Shown here one piece after another: positions 13,855-32,851 of a stretch of DNA of 34,886 nucleotides. The DNA is from a virus, in the IMG/VR virus record IMGVR_UViG_3300010397_000039, positions 1-34,886 of that record; one strand, 5' to 3'. Under the pieces are notes generated by a model. It did no database searches and was not told the DNA's origin. It was given only the letters and a program-made list of their open reading frames with translations. Each line of letters starts with the position of its first letter. Within the stretch, counting starts at the first letter, position 1. The position numbers were made by a program, and so were the translations under genes.

Positions 13855-14526
13855 TTATATATGCTTCCAAATACGGCGCTTGGCTATATTAGTAATAGTA
13901 GAACAACTAACATTAAAAATCCTAGCTATCGTTGCCGAACCTACAGTCTTATCGTAAAGCTTTCTTATCAACAAAACATCTCTTGGTTTTAATATAATGC
14001 CACCACGACCTTTTGAGATCTGATCTTTTTTATTATCTTGCGTAGTTCCTAACCATAAATGATCCGGATTAACACAAGATGTGTTGTCACAACTATGACA
14101 CACGAATAAATTATCAGTTATTGGGCCCTTAAATAATTTATAAGAAACTCGGTGGGCGAATGTGCTTTTCTCATCTCCAAAACATAAATGCCCATAACCA
14201 CTTCTATTTTTAGCACCAGTCCACAACCAACAGGTGTCAGTTATTTTTACATACCACATGAATCTACATTTGTCAGAACAAAATGCTTTTGCATACTTTT
14301 TATAACAAAGGGTGGTACACGTTAGACATGGATATTGTTTTACTTTTCCAATCAATCGAAGATGCTTATTTACATATAATCTACGCTGAACAGCATTCTC
14401 TTTTTGATATCGCGCAACATCCTTATTACGACAAGGCTTACAAACTGCTCGCCACTTAGTTGGTGCAGCTCGTGAGACATTTTCTTCTGTTAGCATGATA
14501 TCACACTTTTTACATTTCTTAACCAT
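13855..14526 (-). CDS. Free-standing HNH homing-type endonuclease
   Basis: This encodes 223 residues. The N-terminus has CKKC and CKPC pairs (residues 5-8, 29-32) and a second pair CLTC and CSDKC (67-70, 83-87), likely zinc sites. The HNH_3-type core follows: CWLWTGAKNRSGYG (99-112), AHRVSY with His125, CHSC (143-146) and NPDHLWLGT with Asn154 and His157. The C-terminus (about 178-217) is a helix-turn-helix that would read DNA sequence (SATIARIFNVSCSTITNIA). It sits between the adaptor and a fibre gene as an extra gene with a weak ribosome site, the usual situation for mobile HNH genes invading structural operons. All core residues look intact. Confidence 0.9.
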   Translation of the reverse strand: MVKKCKKCDIMLTEENVSRAAPTKWRAVCKPCRNKDVARYQKENAVQRRLYVNKHLRLIGKVKQYPCLTCTTLCYKKYAKAFCSDKCRFMWYVKITDTCWLWTGAKNRSGYGHLCFGDEKSTFAHRVSYKLFKGPITDNLFVCHSCDNTSCVNPDHLWLGTTQDNKKDQISKGRGGIILKPRDVLLIRKLYDKTVGSATIARIFNVSCSTITNIAKRRIWKHI

Positions 14527-16528: not shown

Positions 16529-17515
16529 TTATATATTACTTACACTAAATGATTTACCGGCTTTCCAGAAAATCAAATCAGCATTAGCTCCCGCAGGGCT
16601 ATTAGCACCAGCTGCAAGGAACATACCAATTTCCATTTGGTTAACCGTAGCATCACCCAAGATATCAGCGCCAAGTGCCAATGCTAATGAAGTATCTTCA
16701 CCAACAGGAACAACTTGTGCAAACGTGAATGGATATAATGCAACAGCCGGAAACACAAATGCACTAAATGCAGTTGAGTCAATATCAACCGAAATCTGGT
16801 TATTAGCAACAGCGATAATATTACCAACCAAGTTATCGAGTTCGATCATCCCAAAAGCAGCTGGTATATGGAATCTAACTTGTTGTCCAACAGTAAAATC
16901 AGCAGTTACTGACAGATCAACTACCATTGGATTAGCTTGCGCAATATTCACGATAAATCTATTTCGTGGATAGAACGGACTATTGAAATTAACTTGACGA
17001 TAGAAACCAGCACCACCAGCAAATCCAGGTGCGTTTGCTAATGCATAACGCATTCTGAAGTTTGCATTAGCATTGACTGTGTCAATTTCAAAGTCAAAGC
17101 CCATAAGGTTTGGTTGAGCTGCTACGTGTGATAAACGAACAACAGAACCTGTTACAAGACCAGCAGTATTACCCGTTGATACCACAGGCTGAACAGCATT
17201 TGTTTCTGCCGTTGTAGCAATTCTAGCCCCAAGAACCGGTGAGACTGCTGGATCGGATGGATCAACGAGAATAAATTGGCCAGCTCCAGAAGCAACGGGC
17301 TGTAATGCGCTCGTAGCTGCAGTTTTAACGTATTGAATACCGGTTGTAAGCATTCCGAGTTGCCAATAGTAGGCTACCGCTTGGTTACCAGCAGCAGTTA
17401 CCATCTGGGTATAATTCCAGACTTCCATCCAGTCGACGCCACCACGCAACGGAATAAATTTACCCGCTCCGTTTGACGTAAAACTACCTTGTTGTATCAG
17501 TGTATTGTATGCCAT
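16529..17515 (-). CDS. Putative capsid decoration / head fibre protein
   Basis: This encodes 328 residues with an AAGGAGAG ribosome site, immediately after the capsid gene. It is a soluble, strand-rich protein beginning MAYNTLIQQGSFTSNGAGKF. Residues 185-275 form the FCCH-like beta domain also seen at 15684-16052 and in the nozzle. It ends in LIFWKAGKSFSVSNI. Position directly downstream of the capsid protein and the lack of any enzyme motif suggest a head decoration, head-fibre or minor capsid role; this is inference. Confidence 0.6.
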   Translation of the reverse strand: MAYNTLIQQGSFTSNGAGKFIPLRGGVDWMEVWNYTQMVTAAGNQAVAYYWQLGMLTTGIQYVKTAATSALQPVASGAGQFILVDPSDPAVSPVLGARIATTAETNAVQPVVSTGNTAGLVTGSVVRLSHVAAQPNLMGFDFEIDTVNANANFRMRYALANAPGFAGGAGFYRQVNFNSPFYPRNRFIVNIAQANPMVVDLSVTADFTVGQQVRFHIPAAFGMIELDNLVGNIIAVANNQISVDIDSTAFSAFVFPAVALYPFTFAQVVPVGEDTSLALALGADILGDATVNQMEIGMFLAAGANSPAGANADLIFWKAGKSFSVSNI

Positions 17516-17531
17516 GTTTAACTCTCCTTAA

Positions 17532-18479
17532 TTACGCTTGAGTTGCGCGTAGGTTGATGACCCATTGGTCATTAGTGATACGCGGGACTTCAGCGAATTT
17601 GTAGCCAACAGATGCATTAAGCGCCAATGGACCATCATATATAGGCGGTCTATAAATAAAACTAGCGCTATAACCATCTTGCTCGATGCAGGCATATGCT
17701 TCCATACCCACACAGAAAATGTTGAATACGTTATTACCAAGTGCTGAAGCATTAGGGCTCACTGATCCGATTGATGAGATCAGGAAGCGAAGGTTACCAA
17801 TTGAACCCCATTCTGAACGCAGTGCATTCATTGGTGATGGATATTGGTTCTTTTGGATGAAGCCAGCAACAGCATCAAGATCACCAGTTAGCTGCGTGCT
17901 GCAAAGAGCAAAGTACGCATCACGAACTGGAGCTGTACCAAACTTATCTTCACCTTCGATGTTATCCATGATCGTGTATGCATTGTTGTTCAACAACGCA
18001 CGAACAACTACATCAACATCAGAACGTGTGATTTCCGTTGGGTTATCACCGTTTACACCACCCGTAGAGTTAATAAATCCTGCAGTACCTGCAAGCATGT
18101 CACGCGTTAGTTGATCTTCGGTTTGACGAAGAGAAACACCAAGACGAGCAGCACATTCATTAAGTACTGGATCTTGGTTTTGAAGCGTAACTTGCTCATT
18201 AAGTTGTACATATGTGCCATAAAAACTAATACGGGCATCAATATCTACAGCAGTAAGCAATTGTGCTGGGGGAGTAACGCCGGTGTTTCCTAATGGAACC
18301 ATCGCCGTTGCAAGAGGATTATATCTACGCATACGAAGCGTTGTACCACCATTACGTGGCATTTGCTTTTTCATCGCAGGTATTTTGTGAATCATATTTG
18401 GAACCGGAACCGAGAGCAGCTTATAGCTAAAGCTTTGCTGAACCGGCGCAGGCAAGACGGTAGACGTTGTTATAGCCAT
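17532..18479 (-). CDS. Major capsid protein, N4-gp56-like family
   Basis: This encodes 315 residues. The motif set resembles the N4-gp56 family of HK97-fold capsid proteins: TLRMRRYNPLATAMVPLGNT (47-66), GVTPPAQ, GTYVQLNEQVTLQNQDPVLN, RLGVSLRQTEDQLTRDML, then FNIFCVGMEAYACIEQDG near the C-terminus. It is shorter than many members and carries a short basic N-arm. A GAGGAATTCGACG leader gives the ribosome site. It is the first gene after a regulatory region with three operator-like repeats and probably heads the late structural transcript. It is separated from its scaffold (21178-22017) by a 2.7-kb accessory island. Confidence 0.85.
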   Translation of the reverse strand: MAITTSTVLPAPVQQSFSYKLLSVPVPNMIHKIPAMKKQMPRNGGTTLRMRRYNPLATAMVPLGNTGVTPPAQLLTAVDIDARISFYGTYVQLNEQVTLQNQDPVLNECAARLGVSLRQTEDQLTRDMLAGTAGFINSTGGVNGDNPTEITRSDVDVVVRALLNNNAYTIMDNIEGEDKFGTAPVRDAYFALCSTQLTGDLDAVAGFIQKNQYPSPMNALRSEWGSIGNLRFLISSIGSVSPNASALGNNVFNIFCVGMEAYACIEQDGYSASFIYRPPIYDGPLALNASVGYKFAEVPRITNDQWVINLRATQA

Positions 18480-18520
18480 CGTCGAATTCCTCGCTAAAGA
18501 TCATTGTGATTACTCGAGTT

Positions 18521-18603
18521 TGACGAAAACTCCGTACGTCAAAATGAGCTTGACGAATGCTCGATACGTCATAAAAACAAGCATGACGAATGCTTTATAC
18601 GTC
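18521..18603. repeat. Three operator-like 20-bp repeats upstream of capsid gene
   Basis: Near-identical 20-mers start at 18521, 18551 and 18584: TGACGAAAACTCCGTACGTC, TGACGAATGCTCGATACGTC and TGACGAATGCTTTATACGTC, with spacers of 10 and 13 bases. The first two extend to TGACG-N11-CGTCA, an inverted repeat, and the third ends CGTCT. A minus-strand TATAAA (18594-18599) lies inside the third copy. The number, symmetry and place argue for binding sites of a dimeric regulator of the late genes. Confidence 0.8.
18594..18599 (-). promoter_or_regulatory. Candidate -10 box for the capsid operon
   Basis: TATAAA on the minus strand, about 115 bases ahead of the capsid start, has no good -35 at 17 bases (GTGAGG). 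This suggests an activated promoter or chance. It is embedded in an operator-like repeat. Confidence 0.35.
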
Positions 18604-18615
18604 TGCAGAAAGATA

Positions 18616-18648
18616 CCCTCACTAGATGACAAGTGCAACTAATGAGGG
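18616..18648. other. Inverted repeat in capsid leader region
   Basis: CCCTCACTAG and CTAATGAGGG form a 10-bp imperfect stem (one mismatch or wobble) with a 13-nt loop. Neither side has a U-tract, so I do not call it a terminator. It sits between the three repeats and the endolysin terminator. Confidence 0.5.
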
Positions 18649-18707
18649 AGGTATGGTACAGGTACGACGAAAAAAAAGGGAAAACGTCGCACGCCGCGCA
18701 ATCTACC

Positions 18708-18744
18708 ATAAAAAACCCCTCAGTAGATAGGGGTCTACTGAGGG
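18708..18744 (-). terminator. Leftward terminator after the endolysin gene
   Basis: A perfect 11-bp stem (18717-18727 with 18734-18744) closes a TAGGGG loop. On the minus strand it is followed by GGTTTTTTAT. It lies 67 bases past the endolysin stop and isolates that gene from the capsid operon. Confidence 0.9.
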
Positions 18745-18810
18745 TCGGAGAGTAAGAAGCATTCTCTTTGCTGAGTCATTAGTCAAAGAGAATCATAGAC
18801 AATGAGCGAT

Positions 18811-19152
18811 TTATAATTCATACATGCGTTCGAAGTGATTTCCGTCTTTGCGTTGAAATCTACCGCCCCAACGATTTTGATGATCAAGATTTTCCCAAAA
18901 AACCCCAAATTTTTCATACTCATCACTTTCAGACATATAGTCACCCTGAAGAGAGAATATATTCAAATCAATGGCAAGCCGTTGGCGATGAAGACTTTTA
19001 ATAATACCTTTACCTTCTTCTGCATATAATTTTGCTTGCTCAGGAGTTCTGTATGCTTCGCCAAGTGTACACGAATAACCAGATGCAAAAATGAAATCAA
19101 TTAACTGTGCAACGCATTCAGCAAAGCGTGCTTGTTGTTCTTGTAATTTCAT
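18811..19152 (-). CDS. M15-family endolysin (L-Ala-D-Glu type peptidase)
   Basis: This encodes 113 residues. The zinc-ligand motifs of peptidase M15 are visible: SLHRQRLAIDL gives His55 and Asp62, and DGNHFE gives His106, preceded by a typical RWGGRF. The segment GYSCTLGEAYRTPEQAKLYA is the substrate-groove region of the family. The protein would cleave the peptide stem of peptidoglycan at lysis. There is no signal peptide, so it needs a holin; two short membrane proteins at 20439 and 20930 are candidates. A GGAGGGC ribosome site precedes the ATG. It has its own promoter and terminator, separate from the structural operon. Confidence 0.9.
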   Translation of the reverse strand: MKLQEQQARFAECVAQLIDFIFASGYSCTLGEAYRTPEQAKLYAEEGKGIIKSLHRQRLAIDLNIFSLQGDYMSESDEYEKFGVFWENLDHQNRWGGRFQRKDGNHFERMYEL

Positions 19153-19175
19153 TATGCCCTCCTGTAAATGCTCAC

Positions 19176-19203
19176 ACTATACTCATATCTTCTGAGTAAG
19201 CAA
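19176..19203 (-). promoter_or_regulatory. Leftward promoter for the endolysin gene
   Basis: On the minus strand TTGCTT, 16 bases, TATAGT (5 of 6 at -10) lies 24 bases before the endolysin start. It diverges from the exported-protein promoter at 19256. Confidence 0.6.
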
Positions 19204-19255
19204 ACGTGTATTTAAATCTGTCACATTCTGAAATTAAATGTTTTTTAAAAGTGTA

Positions 19256-19283
19256 TTGACACGTATTAAAGAACGTATACATT
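19256..19283 (+). promoter_or_regulatory. Rightward promoter for exported-protein genes
   Basis: A consensus TTGACA (19256-19261), 16 bases, TACATT precedes the rightward genes. The leader of about 130 bases before the ATG at 19420 has no other gene that I can support. Confidence 0.6.
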
Positions 19284-19419
19284 GATTTATGGATGTAAGA
19301 GTAAGAGCATAGTTAGCAATGAGTTCAAGTTCCATGGCCTTGTCACCCGTGGCTGTTCTATATCTTTTCACGTCCAAGTAAGCAGTCGTATCATTATCAT
19401 ATCTTTACGAAGGACAATC

Positions 19420-19803
19420 ATGTCTTTACGCAAATTATCGCTTATAGCGGTAACAATCTCTCTTTGTACCCTTGCATCTGCAATGGAAAACTCTAATCAA
19501 CCACAACCATCACCAACTCCAGCACAGCCACAGAAAAGTGTTGCCATTGAAGGACTAAAAGGAGCTGCTATAGCCAAAGGTGGTGTAAGTCTTGTTGGCC
19601 ATGGTGCTATTGCCGTAATAAGTGCAGGCGCCGGTCTTGTTGGTGGTCCTGCTGCAGGATATGGGGCATGGACAGCATTAGAAACCTTCTTTGGTCCCGG
19701 TATCGAAGCATATAGTTATAAAGCTGCTCTTATTGGTTCTGTGGCAGGTGCCTCTAAAGCTGAAGAATATAACGCAGCTCTTAGAGCAGAACCAAAGAAA
19801 TAA
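19420..19803 (+). CDS. Exported glycine-rich protein of unknown function
   Basis: This encodes 127 residues. I start it at the ATG behind GAAGGACAATC; the longer in-frame version adds 46 residues without a ribosome site and would bury the signal peptide. Residues 1-21 form a signal peptide (basic MSLRKL, hydrophobic core, LASA cleavage site before MENSNQ). A Pro/Gln linker (NQPQPSPTPAQPQ) follows. The mature part has small-residue-rich hydrophobic stretches (GAIAVISAGAGLVGGPAAGYGAW and ALIGSVAGAS) resembling glycine zippers, which pack in membranes. Function is unknown; its neighbour at 19826 has a similar build. A membrane-active, envelope-modifying or superinfection-exclusion protein is possible. 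Confidence 0.75.
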   Translation: MSLRKLSLIAVTISLCTLASAMENSNQPQPSPTPAQPQKSVAIEGLKGAAIAKGGVSLVGHGAIAVISAGAGLVGGPAAGYGAWTALETFFGPGIEAYSYKAALIGSVAGASKAEEYNAALRAEPKK

Positions 19804-19825
19804 CTATTACATCTAGGAAGTTACT

Positions 19826-20383
19826 ATGAACTTAAGAATATTATTAGTACTCGTTGTTTCATGCAGCATTATTAGTGCAAGTGAAACCACGCATAATGGA
19901 ATGCGAATTCCAAAGTCAGCCATCCTTGGCAAATCAGCTCTTGGCAAAGCACGCTTGATGCGAGATGAAGAAGGCTTCAAAGTAATCAAAAAGGGAAAGA
20001 GTTTCCCAATTGATCCTACTCTTGTTGAAGCACCGCTTCGCGCAATGAATGATGAGCAACTGGGTAAATATCTTGCGGTTGCTAAGATCGCGGTATCTAA
20101 AACAAGTGACAAGAACTTTGTCCTACGTACACATGTTCCTGGACAAGGCGGTGGTGTTGTCGGCGCAACTATCGGTGCTTGGGCCGGCTATTGCGGTGTT
20201 CAGGCAGGAGCGTTGGGAATTGCAAAACTGATCTCACTACCCTTTGCCGCTGTAAATCCTGCATTAGGATTTACAGTATATGCGGGATGTGCTGTTGCAG
20301 CAAAAATCCTTGCTCAACCCGTTGCTGTTGCTGCTGGAGTTGCTGGCGGCATAACTGTTGGTACTCTAACTGGTCCTGTTTGA
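19826..20383 (+). CDS. Exported protein with C-terminal glycine-rich hydrophobic region
   Basis: This encodes 185 residues. Residues 1-18 are a signal peptide (MNLRILLVLVVSCSIISA, then SETTHN). The middle (25-105) is a basic, soluble region (GKSALGKARLMRDEEGF, PIDPTLVEAPLRAMNDEQLG). From about residue 108 it becomes hydrophobic and Gly/Ala-rich to the end (GGGVVGATIGAWAGYCGVQ, then AAVNPALGFTVYAGCAVAA, then GVAGGITVGTLTGPV), with GxxxG spacing. It follows the other exported gene by 22 nt and is probably co-transcribed, and it is closed by a strong hairpin. No family recognised. The build recalls small membrane-disrupting or envelope proteins. Confidence 0.75.
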   Translation: MNLRILLVLVVSCSIISASETTHNGMRIPKSAILGKSALGKARLMRDEEGFKVIKKGKSFPIDPTLVEAPLRAMNDEQLGKYLAVAKIAVSKTSDKNFVLRTHVPGQGGGVVGATIGAWAGYCGVQAGALGIAKLISLPFAAVNPALGFTVYAGCAVAAKILAQPVAVAAGVAGGITVGTLTGPV

Positions 20384-20394
20384 TAGACCATAAC

Positions 20395-20424
20395 AATAAG
20401 GGCTTGCGAAAGCAAGCCCTTATT
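20395..20424 (+). terminator. Terminator hairpin after the exported-protein genes
   Basis: A perfect 13-bp stem (AATAAGGGCTTGC with its complement) closes a GAAA tetraloop, a very stable combination. The 3' side is U-rich only within the stem (TTATT, then CTAC), so termination strength is moderate. It may also work leftward. Confidence 0.75.
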
Positions 20425-20438
20425 CTACAAAGAGAAAA

Positions 20439-20873
20439 ATGATACGAATATCTGAAAAGCATTGGACACGATTCAAACAAGAATTGCCTGCCATTCTTTA
20501 CCTTTCTGGTATGCAGATATGGCATAACTTCAATTTCCCATTTCTGATATGGACAGGATTTTGGGGACAAACAATTGCTAGTGTATTGGGTATAGCGCTT
20601 TGTACCCTTTTATTTGTGAATGCTCGTGAATGGTTTGTACCTTTTTTTGATGAATGGTTCATAGATGAAGTACCGGATAAGAAACTTCGTTTTAAATTCA
20701 AGATAACTCATCGAATAATCATAGGTTTTTTTATAGCCCTGGAATGGTGGTATATGTGGTACAAAAACTGGTGGAATGTATCCACATCGCACTTTGTAGC
20801 CATTACCTTACACAATTTTATTCTTTACTGGCTTTGGAAAAAAGCAGCTCAAAGACAAAGAAAACAACTTTGA
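20439..20873 (+). CDS. Trp-rich multi-span membrane protein, possible holin
   Basis: This encodes 144 residues with likely membrane segments at about 34-60, 91-107 and 118-133 and many Trp, Phe and Tyr residues (LEWWYMWYKNWW). A charged loop (70-90) and a basic tail (KKAAQRQRKQL) are present. Three spans, a basic C-terminus and proximity to the endolysin fit a holin-like role, but size is large for one. The ribosome site is weak (AAAGAGAAAA). Function is open. Confidence 0.65.
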   Translation: MIRISEKHWTRFKQELPAILYLSGMQIWHNFNFPFLIWTGFWGQTIASVLGIALCTLLFVNAREWFVPFFDEWFIDEVPDKKLRFKFKITHRIIIGFFIALEWWYMWYKNWWNVSTSHFVAITLHNFILYWLWKKAAQRQRKQL

Positions 20874-20929
20874 ATAATTACGACAGGGCTCCCGTGGATA
20901 ACCTTGCCGTTAACACATAAAGAACAGCT

Positions 20930-21127
20930 ATGCATGAATACTGGAACCACGTTAAGAAACAGTTATTAAACTATAGCTTAGTCGTAATCATTTACAGTAT
21001 TTTTTATGGTCTTTCTGTGTACTTCAAAATACGAGAAGCGGAAACTATCTATACACAAGATTTTATCCCTGTATCGATTTTCTTTATCTTCGGCGGTGCT
21101 GCACTAAGTTATTATATGGATAAATGA
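20930..21127 (+). CDS. Two-span small membrane protein, holin candidate
   Basis: This encodes 65 residues with two hydrophobic segments (about 13-31 and 45-61) separated by a charged loop (KIREAETIYTQDF) and a short C-terminus MDK. This topology and size match class II holins. It is the last gene of the rightward island, next to the M15 endolysin in the genome, and runs into a hairpin shared with the convergent scaffold gene. The ribosome site is poor (AAAGAACAGCT). Assignment as holin is inference. Confidence 0.6.
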   Translation: MHEYWNHVKKQLLNYSLVVIIYSIFYGLSVYFKIREAETIYTQDFIPVSIFFIFGGAALSYYMDK

Positions 21128-21130
21128 AAT

Positions 21131-21166
21131 CCCCATATCTAAGAACTAACCAACCTAGACATGGGG
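21131..21166. terminator. Hairpin between convergent island and scaffold genes
   Basis: CCCCAT-x-TCTA pairs with TAGA-x-ATGGGG. The minus-strand exit is ATTTCATTTAT and the plus-strand exit is AAAAAATAG, so leftward termination of the scaffold transcript is the better case. Confidence 0.55.
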
Positions 21167-21177
21167 AAAAAATAGTC

Positions 21178-22017
21178 TTAGTAACCTTTTCTCGCAGCGT
21201 TCATTTCTTTAAGTAACTGTTCTTTAAGTGATGGCGTAAGCCCTTCAGCAAAAGCATTAGCTCTCGATAGTGGTGATTCGCCCTGTTGTGGCGAAACACT
21301 CGTTAGTGGCCGAGGCTTTGCCATGTTCTTAGCTACTTTATCTTTATCATTAAGTGCAGACAAAGCTGATGTCGTTGAATCTTGATGGATGCCAAACTTC
21401 TTCATAAGGGTATAAGCAGAAGCAGCTTGTGCATACATGTCCTTAGTTTGGCTTAATGTATATGCCAATTCAGGATATGCAGCATACAGCGTGGCTACAT
21501 TATCTTTAGAAACAACTTGGTCGAAATCTGGATATTGGGCTTTGATGCGCGCTTCGATTCGTTGTTCTTCTGTTTGCTCTTGTTGCTTCCTGATTTGGTC
21601 TTCTAGTCTCTTAACTTTCCGAGCCATTTTAGACAGATGTTTTCCTTCAGCAAGATCATCATCGCCAATGCGGATCTCATCATCTTCTTCAACGGGTATT
21701 GCAGGCTTTGTAACTTTTGCTTCAAGTTCTGCCAAGCGACGCATAGCGTCATCCCGCTCTCTTTCAACGCGAGCCTTAGCTTCGCGCATCTCACGAAAAT
21801 TCTTCGCAGCATCCGATTCTTTAGACGGTTGAACTTGTTGTACCGGCTCAGGGGCTTCACTGACAGCTTGTACAGTTTCTTCATTCGCTTCAACGGAAGC
21901 TGTTTCAACGGTTTGCTCTTCGACTGGTTCTTGAACTGCAGACTCTGGTTTCTCTTCATATACCGGCTCTGAACTAATGACTTTACCATTAACGTCATAT
22001 TTCACTTCAAATGACAT
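21178..22017 (-). CDS. Head scaffolding protein
   Basis: This encodes 279 residues. It is highly acidic at the N-terminus (EEKPESAVQEPVEEQTVETA), then a charged helical coiled coil (about 65-160: AAKNFREMREAKARVERERD, RKVKRLEDQIRKQQEQTEEQ), then a helical C-terminal part that ends KEQLLKEMNAARKGY. This acidic-coil-basic design and the place after the portal fit scaffold proteins that direct capsid assembly and leave the shell. An AAGGAGCACGT ribosome site is present. In most relatives the capsid gene follows immediately; here 2.7 kb intervene. Confidence 0.85.
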   Translation of the reverse strand: MSFEVKYDVNGKVISSEPVYEEKPESAVQEPVEEQTVETASVEANEETVQAVSEAPEPVQQVQPSKESDAAKNFREMREAKARVERERDDAMRRLAELEAKVTKPAIPVEEDDEIRIGDDDLAEGKHLSKMARKVKRLEDQIRKQQEQTEEQRIEARIKAQYPDFDQVVSKDNVATLYAAYPELAYTLSQTKDMYAQAASAYTLMKKFGIHQDSTTSALSALNDKDKVAKNMAKPRPLTSVSPQQGESPLSRANAFAEGLTPSLKEQLLKEMNAARKGY

Positions 22018-22031
22018 ACGTGCTCCTTATC

Positions 22032-22517
22032 TTAGGTGATTAACATTGGTGTTTCTAACGCTTCTCCGTTTAATTTTTTAGCTTTCTTCATGAGCGTATC
22101 ATCATAGAAATCGAGAATATAGTGAAGAAGATCACGCTCCGAAGGATCAACTTCTAACGCATGATCCCTCAAATGTTCACATGTGTCTTTTGACGGTATA
22201 ACCCATAGGAACTCGAGAGATTCATGCGAAGAAACGAATTTATAAACAGTTTGGTCATAATCCGGTGTAGGGCAGGTAAGTCTACCAAAAAAGTAATGCC
22301 GAACAACGTTCTCAAGAAGTTTCTCTTTTTTAGTAAGAACGACGACATAGAAATCACCGGTAAATAATTTCTTAGAACGGGTAACGCATTCCCATACGTT
22401 ATTCTCGTACTGTTCATGCATTGCCCGTTCAAGTTCTATAACGCTTCGAGTCGGAGCTTCTTGCTGTATAAGATCGGTTGCAATCTTACCGACCGTTTTT
22501 CTATCACGTTGTGTCAT
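22032..22517 (-). CDS. Conserved hypothetical protein of the head module
   Basis: This encodes 161 residues with no signal or membrane segment. Segments such as RAMHEQYENNVWECVTRSKK, YVVVLTKKEKLLENVVRHYF and RLTCPTPDYDQTVYKF recall proteins next to scaffold genes in uncultured podoviruses. The start codon overlaps the stop of the upstream gene (TAATG), so expression is coupled. No function is known to me. Confidence 0.7.
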   Translation of the reverse strand: MTQRDRKTVGKIATDLIQQEAPTRSVIELERAMHEQYENNVWECVTRSKKLFTGDFYVVVLTKKEKLLENVVRHYFFGRLTCPTPDYDQTVYKFVSSHESLEFLWVIPSKDTCEHLRDHALEVDPSERDLLHYILDFYDDTLMKKAKKLNGEALETPMLIT

Positions 22518-31975: not shown

Positions 31976-32167
31976 ATGTCAGACCAACCATCACGCATAA
32001 GCGAACCGCCCATGCTGATACAACGGCATAGTGCACCTAATATCTATGATCATGCACCGGTAGGATCTCAATGCAAAGTCGTTGCACATGATGGATCTTT
32101 CGTGATGTATACCCAAACCAGTAGAGATGAAAATAATCCTCGCTGGGAAATGCTAAAACAAGAATAA
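31976..32167 (+). CDS. Small hypothetical protein
   Basis: This encodes 63 residues with an ACGAGGACACT ribosome site. It is soluble with segments QCKVVAHDGSFVMYTQTS and ENNPRWEMLKQE, suggesting one small beta domain. It closes the early operon before a terminator. No family recognised. Confidence 0.65.
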   Translation: MSDQPSRISEPPMLIQRHSAPNIYDHAPVGSQCKVVAHDGSFVMYTQTSRDENNPRWEMLKQE

Positions 32168-32203
32168 CGTTAGGGACAGTGTAGAAGCACATTGTATTAC
32201 TTC

Positions 32204-32240
32204 CCCCTGTGTAGGATAATCTTACGCAGGGGTATTTTAC
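32204..32240 (+). terminator. Rightward terminator after the early operon
   Basis: CCCCTGTGTA (32204-32213) pairs with TACGCAGGGG (32223-32232) with one U-G pair and is followed by TATTTTACTTT. It stands between the early operon and the two exported-protein genes. Confidence 0.8.
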
Positions 32241-32254
32241 TTTAAGGAGGTACC

Positions 32255-32491
32255 ATGACGAAGCTATTCTTCTCTCTTCTGTTTGTTGCGCCCTTATATT
32301 CTGCCGACAAACAACCTACAACCAACGTTGTTGTCACCACAACACAAACTGTTACACAAGCTAGTAATCATAAAAAGCACGAACGCAAAGCCCATTATAA
32401 AGTTGAGCGTCAGGTTATTCCTGAAAGACCGAAAAATGATGATCAGGTAGAAGCAGGGTGTTGTTGTTTCTTTAGAGACAGTTCAAAGTAA
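32255..32491 (+). CDS. Exported protein with Cys-rich C-terminus
   Basis: This encodes 78 residues with an ideal AAGGAGGTACC ribosome site. Residues 1-17 are a signal peptide (MTKLFFSLLFVAPLYSA). The mature part is a Thr/Val-rich stretch (NVVVTTTQTVTQAS), a basic His/Lys segment and a C-terminal GCCCFFRDSSK. Three adjacent cysteines followed by two Phe are unusual for an export substrate and suggest disulfide, metal or lipid attachment. The downstream neighbour also ends in a Cys cluster. Function unknown. Confidence 0.7.
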   Translation: MTKLFFSLLFVAPLYSADKQPTTNVVVTTTQTVTQASNHKKHERKAHYKVERQVIPERPKNDDQVEAGCCCFFRDSSK

Positions 32492-32500
32492 GGAAATGTA

Positions 32501-32851
32501 ATGAAAGCTCGTCAGGTTATTGGTGTAAGTTTATTGGTTATCTGTATGGCGTTGTTGTGGAATATCTATAGCGTACAAATGGACTTGCCTGCGCATAATC
32601 CACCACTCGTACGCTCACAAGGTGTTCCTGATCTTCATGCTGCTGCCATAGCACAACAAGAACAATTGCTTCTTGATCTTGATGCAGCACTTGATGATGC
32701 GGCATTCCGTTATAGAGTTGCGGGTATTTTCAATAGCCATATACAACAAAACCCTATTCCTGGAACACAGATTGTACCAGCACAACGAACAGAATTAACC
32801 TGGTGGCAAAAGATATGTAAAGCGTGTAATTGTAGTGGTGCACGACGATAG
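32501..32851 (+). CDS. Membrane-anchored protein with Cys-rich C-terminus
   Basis: This encodes 116 residues with an AAGGAAATGTA ribosome site. An N-terminal anchor (residues 5-25, QVIGVSLLVICMALLWNIYS) is followed by an Ala/Asp-rich helix (AIAQQEQLLLDLDAALDDAA) and a C-terminal WWQKICKACNCSGARR. With the upstream exported gene it forms a pair, reminiscent of i-spanin/o-spanin pairs, although the upstream one lacks a lipobox. It could instead modify the cell surface. Confidence 0.65.
   Translation: MKARQVIGVSLLVICMALLWNIYSVQMDLPAHNPPLVRSQGVPDLHAAAIAQQEQLLLDLDAALDDAAFRYRVAGIFNSHIQQNPIPGTQIVPAQRTELTWWQKICKACNCSGARR

Follow-up and report, generated by a model that had tools for sequence, protein, structure and literature searches.

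A variable insertion site between the scaffold and capsid genes of an uncultured phage group, bordered by a predicted promoter and a tandem array of pseudoknot-like leader units

Why do 2.7 kb of additional genes lie between the scaffold and capsid genes of a phage, and how is the capsid gene expressed from behind them? The question is raised by the IMG/VR record IMGVR_UViG_3300010397_000039, of which the whole stretch of 34,886 nucleotides (hereafter the window) was analysed. The window comes from a P22-portal-type phage, as its portal protein matches PF16510 in a profile search (E 1e-75); it has no DNA similarity to named phages, and the distant named phages that were matched by protein share at most ~27% identity in the major capsid protein (MCP). 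The MCP gene (17532-18479, minus strand; phrog_1357, E 3e-32) and the putative scaffold gene (21178-22017, minus strand) enclose the extra genes; the latter had no profile match and is assigned solely from its position between the portal and MCP genes, which is kept in relatives. The original prediction, made for positions 18481-21177, had described a leftward endolysin and four rightward genes in this interval, and all of the gene positions proved to be correct. The explanation that we consider probable is that the island represents the present content of an accessory insertion site, with a terminated scaffold gene on one side and, on the other, a capsid gene that forms a transcription unit of its own and whose mRNA would carry a cis-acting RNA leader array. 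The variable site, the fixed flanks, the covarying interleaved helices, the promoter spacing and the association with the start of the MCP or scaffold gene are all computed observations.

Relatives were collected from IMG/VR using the MCP as query (493 relatives, of which 80 were fetched, with M15 peptidase relatives added), and the putative scaffold and MCP genes were placed by tblastn, yielding 75 loci with both flanks; this set includes near-duplicate contigs, and the counts are not independent. The gap between the two genes measured 155-415 nt and contained no called gene in 39/75 loci, and it spanned 529-4,859 nt in 36/75 loci, nearly all of them with open reading frames (ORFs), the contents of which nearly always differed. 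The expectation that the genes would be absent or different in relatives while the flanks were conserved was borne out, and nowhere in the 75 loci did the alternative appear, that is, one gene set common to all relatives. An M15 endolysin was found in the gap at 14 loci, always on the head-gene strand and with various partners. Other gaps held a GroES-GroEL operon (L046:3522-5407, L068:4954-6850 and L070:7794-9690), an SPFH (Band 7) protein (L055/L056), a Dcm methylase (L007), sulfotransferase-like and HAD proteins (L006), a helicase (L069), a thymidylate-synthase-like protein with a signal-peptide-like N-terminus (L005:8506-9489), LAGLIDADG proteins (L041/L066/L067/L076) or a tRNA (L031). Small proteins that combine a signal-like start with a single hydrophobic segment were numerous among the inserts.

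The original prediction had taken the 2.7 kb as an independent, exchangeable lysis/export cassette. The terminators at both ends fit such a unit, as does the arrangement in the nearest relatives, L083 and L084, where the M15 peptidase, ExpA, ExpB and TM2 (the genes are described below) recur in the same order. However, TM1 had no match in any fetched relative, including these two, in which two small membrane ORFs were called in its stead; relatives of ExpA and ExpB were found at other places in other genomes, members of the island occur separately, and many unrelated inserts occupy the same site. The accessory nature of the region therefore stands, whereas a cassette swapped whole is improbable and, taken as a unit, has for the most part been refuted: genes are collected piecemeal at this hot spot.

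Phage accessory insertions include the so-called morons and the insertions associated with homing endonucleases. The site resembles morons in that genes with their own terminators sit amid conserved structural genes, with homing endonucleases among the inserts. It differs from the usual accessory sites in lying between scaffold and capsid genes, where there is ordinarily hardly any space (11-22 nt in Y3 and Page, two named distant phages), and in inserts such as GroES-GroEL, SPFH and secreted proteins. A search of the open-access literature for a scaffold-capsid insertion hot spot found nothing on point.

Intervening sequences were also observed within the capsid gene. In many relatives the MCP gene is split near codon 12-14 or further inside by sequences carrying LAGLIDADG-like ORFs (L041:8689-9261, L066:1405-1974, L076:9329-9916, L083:11012-11560 on the opposite strand, and L091/G004 contig C388), and one Parachlamydia metagenome-assembled genome (MAG) has an MCP copy in about five pieces. 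The junctions look group I-like by eye, and Rfam gave no match for them.

Between the insertion site and the MCP gene, nearly every relative of the clade carries 2-5 tandem units of ~25 nt followed by a Shine-Dalgarno (SD) sequence, often with a recognisable sigma70-like promoter ahead of the units. The array and the conserved promoter had been overlooked in the original prediction, and the array is more surprising than the island itself. The array is present in the 260 nt upstream of the MCP gene at empty and filled sites alike, the units per array vary from 1 to 8, and the last unit typically ends 31-45 nt before the MCP ATG. The units follow the form A1-YA..-B1-..U-A2-AN-B2, in which two helices interleave, and their conserved residues are CG-YA...U-CG. 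The window has three pseudoknot-like units on the minus strand: unit 1, at the predicted 5' end of the transcript (18579-18603, GACG TATA AAGCA TT CGTC A TGCTT), unit 2 (18546-18570, GACG TATC GAGC ATT CGTC AA GCTC) and unit 3 (18516-18540, GACG TACG GAGTT TT CGTC A AACTC). The leaders contain 1.69 units each; dinucleotide shuffling brings this down to 0.26, and control windows have 0.24. Strict units occur at 2.5/kb in leaders versus 0.01/kb per strand elsewhere (~250-fold), none of them antisense. A further arrangement was seen in L281:4589-4755, where seven near-identical 24-nt units stand in direct tandem, apparently followed by another GACG-type unit.

Pairing was examined in units for which CG[TC][AT] and a TCG further on served as the only anchors. 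The unselected outer A helix (S1) paired in Watson-Crick fashion in 63% of the units versus 20% after permutation (maximum 31%), and, given the A helix, a B helix (S2) of at least 4 bp formed in 72% versus 13% (maximum 20.5%). For 39 distinct units, selected by nothing but a CG[TC]A anchor and a TCG 15 nt further along, all column pairs were ranked, and the top seven proved to be exactly those of the two interleaved helices (85.5% paired versus 65.6%; covariation 0.561 versus 0.207 when shuffled, with 0/500 as high), and in alignments slid out of register covariation reached at most 0.205. Kinship may inflate these tests, although the slid controls retain relatedness and the permutations concur. 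The interleaved helices thus covary strongly, and each unit is either a mini-pseudoknot or two mutually exclusive hairpins.

The position of the array relative to a promoter bears on whether it acts as RNA. In the window, a promoter for the MCP gene was predicted on the minus strand (18610-18638, TTGCAC-17-TATCTT, weak by consensus), with a -10 box that ends 6 nt before unit 1. Among 45 leaders, a sigma70-like -10 box ending 6-7 nt before unit 1 scored over the threshold in 33% and 22%, compared with ~2% of leaders at other distances, and no antisense promoter peak was detected near the array. From this spacing the transcript is predicted to begin at unit 1, so that the MCP would be transcribed from its own sigma70-like promoter, with an mRNA opening in the tandem-unit leader. 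Since the MCP would then need no read-through from the scaffold gene, genes could come and go in the gap with capsid synthesis left undisturbed. Scans of all IMG/VR with the unit pattern put 87/156 matches at 0-400 nt ahead of genes of this MCP family, and units were also found upstream of MCPs that are ~40% identical, in MAGs (L293, L295).

An element that works at the DNA level or through an antisense transcript, for instance as a protein-binding or packaging signal, could account for the array in place of a capsid mRNA leader. The loop lengths on the complementary strand would suit a classical H-type pseudoknot better, and single-stranded DNA had once been proposed as the active form of the similar-looking STAXI motif (PMC2864571). 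We regard this as very improbable, as the promoter spacing is seen in the MCP sense only, the units are tied to the MCP or scaffold start, the helix sequences change while pairing is kept, which duplex-binding proteins would not need, and the pairing with the SD also runs in the sense direction.

The array most likely acts instead in cis, as RNA that covers the capsid mRNA at its 5' end and may protect or switch it, possibly with a ligand or protein acting on the array. If it were a 5' stabiliser only, the structured repeats at the mRNA end would block 5'-dependent decay and give a high capsid yield with no switching. Its start at the predicted +1, ahead of the gene needed in most copies, is in line with this, and unit numbers ranging from 1 to 8 would mean that dose may matter more than exact form. 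Nevertheless, this account explains neither the conserved CG-YA...U-CG residues nor the pairing of the last unit with the SD, and it appears rather unlikely.

That pairing involves the SD of the MCP gene (GAGG, 18489-18492, minus strand), where CGAG at 18490-18493 can pair with CTCG at 18515-18518 (CUCG in RNA). Across the leaders, the longest helix that the last unit's tail can form with the SD region averaged 5.03, versus 4.15 in permutations (sd 0.13) and 3.58 for the tail of the first unit, and at least 6 pairs were formed in 38% versus 10%. The typical pairing is CUUAAG...CUUAAGG, in which CUU is also the B2 strand of the unit; because B2 of the last unit is shared by the two, unit formation and SD sequestration would compete. 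The last unit would then gate the SD, its 3' strand pairing either inside the unit or with the SD region, which suggests a translational switch. As a tentative extension, to which we give somewhat less than even credence, the arrays would constitute a novel type of translational switch, made of tandem pseudoknots, by which the synthesis of capsid protein is timed or metered: the SD would vie with B1 of the last unit for one strand, the output would be set by a factor of phage or host origin that makes the units more stable, and the array would move with its promoter between scaffold and capsid genes, being retained across MCPs ~40% identical.

Several observations weigh against an RNA leader built of pseudoknots. 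When folded with nested pairs only, the window leader does no better than its shuffles (z -0.25, not significant), so that the case is carried by covariation. The window's own SD pairing is just 4 bp, and that of L083 is weaker still. Changes of the G-U type outnumber those of the A-C type only 11 to 6, so the strand is not fixed, and 57/156 pattern matches lie elsewhere; among those that could be assigned, several clearly mark the MCP start in a split gene or at a contig end, and many are chance matches in GC-rich coding DNA. In addition, the loop that would cross the first helix, between A2 and B2, is just 1-2 nt long, which is short for a pseudoknot of the classical coaxial H type, for which reason the helices may be alternatives. 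A bistable switch would take this literally, the two helices of each unit being mutually exclusive hairpins, the last of which toggles the SD, and it agrees both with the sterically tight loop and with the pairing of the last unit's B2 with the SD region. We hold this possible but doubtful, as both helices are kept in units that are too distant from the SD to toggle it, and the tandem repetition would be left unexplained.

The sister clade provides a comparison for the linkage between leader and insertion site. Its scaffold-MCP spacing is 14-58 nt, no array precedes the MCP, and nearly all of its loci lack inserts in the gap; strict units were found near the scaffold start in 12/30 loci, mostly directly before the scaffold SD, although a few of these matches fall inside the scaffold gene and may be due to chance. 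The named phages Y3 and Page had no units before the MCP in a strict scan. The sister clade, without the promoter-array between the two genes, has a closed gap, a link to the inserts that is a correlation and not proof. Separately, in the sister-clade loci L087 and L095 a second conserved element, CTTGAT...ATCAAG, was noted ~760-830 nt upstream of the MCP and upstream of the scaffold gene; it encloses an apparent pseudoknot, e.g. CGTG A GTC CACG TTAGT GAC.

The closest phage precedent is the gene 32 leader of T4, T2 and RB69, where a pseudoknot preceding the initiation region of an abundantly made phage protein is bound by gp32, the single-stranded DNA-binding protein; a 2010 review considered it perhaps the sole viral pseudoknot used in translational autoregulation (PMC3014915). 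The array may resemble gene 32 in placing an interleaved-helix element, here a putative pseudoknot, in the leader of a phage mRNA, ahead of the start codon and separated from it by an A+U-rich stretch. Unlike the single gene 32 pseudoknot, 2-5 much smaller units are arranged in tandem before a capsid gene, with an SD-complementary tail. STAXI (RF01728), reported from Escherichia, is a small pseudoknot in two or usually three tandem copies near ssb, topoisomerase, antirestriction and integrase genes (PMC2864571). The array shares with it the tandem repetition of a pseudoknot-like fold, here of covarying interleaved helices (pseudoknots or exclusive hairpins), and the UUCG within STAXI repeats has a counterpart in the CUCG or UUCG at the A2 start, whereas the array units lie before the MCP or near the scaffold start and not by DNA-manipulation genes. 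A direct RF01728 search was empty, but control genomes were also silent, so that the exclusion is moderate; the published STAXI primer sequence had no match in IMG/VR. Rfam searches gave no relevant match in window positions 17400-22100 (E<=1) or in 17 relatives (E<=0.5 or 0.1), and the open-access literature yielded no phage capsid gene preceded by a leader of tandem pseudoknots. The leader array is apparently undescribed.

Turning to the present content of the site in the window, the M15 peptidase (endolysin, 113 aa, 18811-19152, minus strand, as the head genes) matches PF13539 (E 8e-7; 29.9 bits, curated cut-off 25) and phrog_1768 (E 2e-11), has the M15-family residues H...D and H in its sequence, and is nothing unusual among M15 endolysins of PF13539. 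The four rightward genes encode ExpA (127 aa, 19420-19803, plus strand), ExpB (185 aa, 19826-20383, plus strand), TM1 (a membrane protein of 144 aa, 20439-20873, plus strand) and TM2 (65 aa with two hydrophobic segments, 20930-21127, plus strand), the last two with weak coding scores in a simple ORF caller. The N-termini of ExpA and ExpB resemble signal peptides by eye and both have Gly-rich hydrophobic stretches, and TM1 and TM2 contain hydrophobic segments, but none of the four had a Pfam, PHROG or NCBIfam match over cut-off and hence no holin or pinholin profile names them. ExpA and ExpB form one protein cluster. When ExpB of the window is compared with L083:8788-9330 and L084:1740-2282, its N-terminal domain is seen to be conserved, but the hydrophobic C-terminal part varies among these close relatives and is ExpA-like in L084. 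The structure model of ExpB was of low confidence (pLDDT 62.7), with no fold match at E<=0.001, and roles of ExpA and ExpB in export, pore formation or exclusion are guesses.

The island is indeed fenced by terminators, both oriented for leftward transcripts. An intrinsic terminator follows the M15 gene (18717-18744, minus strand, 11 pairs and a T-rich tail), and a terminator-like hairpin follows the scaffold gene (21130-21167, minus strand, 12-bp stem, 14-nt loop and the T-rich tail TTTCATTT), which was missed by a standard scan because of its long loop; hairpins of this kind followed the scaffold gene in 49% of the 75 loci versus 4% of shuffles. The endolysin accordingly has its own terminator, while no promoter of its own exceeded the scan threshold. 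A promoter-like site for the rightward genes (19256-19283, plus strand, TTGACA-16-TACATT, a 10-of-12 match) is weak evidence, since promoter-like matches are rarer in the region than in shuffles, and a perfect 13-bp palindrome with a GAAA loop, terminator-like and with no strand assigned, lies downstream of ExpB (20395-20424). Elsewhere in the window, an HNH-like ORF of 223 aa was identified by eye amid the structural genes (13855-14526, minus strand), and three more small rightward ORFs, two with signal-like N-termini, lie at the right end (31976-32851, plus strand), possibly a second accessory site.

Relatives of the MCP were found in 8/234 Chlamydiota genomes (MAG loci L087, L090, L091 and L291-L295), and comparably strong matches in 1/398 Pseudomonadota genomes and 1/235 genomes of the order of L089, counts that come mostly from MAGs, in which the binning of phage contigs is unreliable and contigs may be co-binned free phage, and that cover these three groups. 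They give a hint, and only a hint, of Chlamydiota as host.

If the leader reading is true, a large uncultured phage group (~500 IMG/VR loci for one MCP query) controls its capsid gene by an RNA structure absent from Rfam, and the phage mRNA pseudoknots with a proposed role in translational control, of which there are very few, would gain a second kind. The compact repeated units suit simple reporter testing. The same boundary would explain why accessory genes lie between scaffold and capsid here and not in the sister clade, and the control of capsid dose is a general problem of virion assembly.

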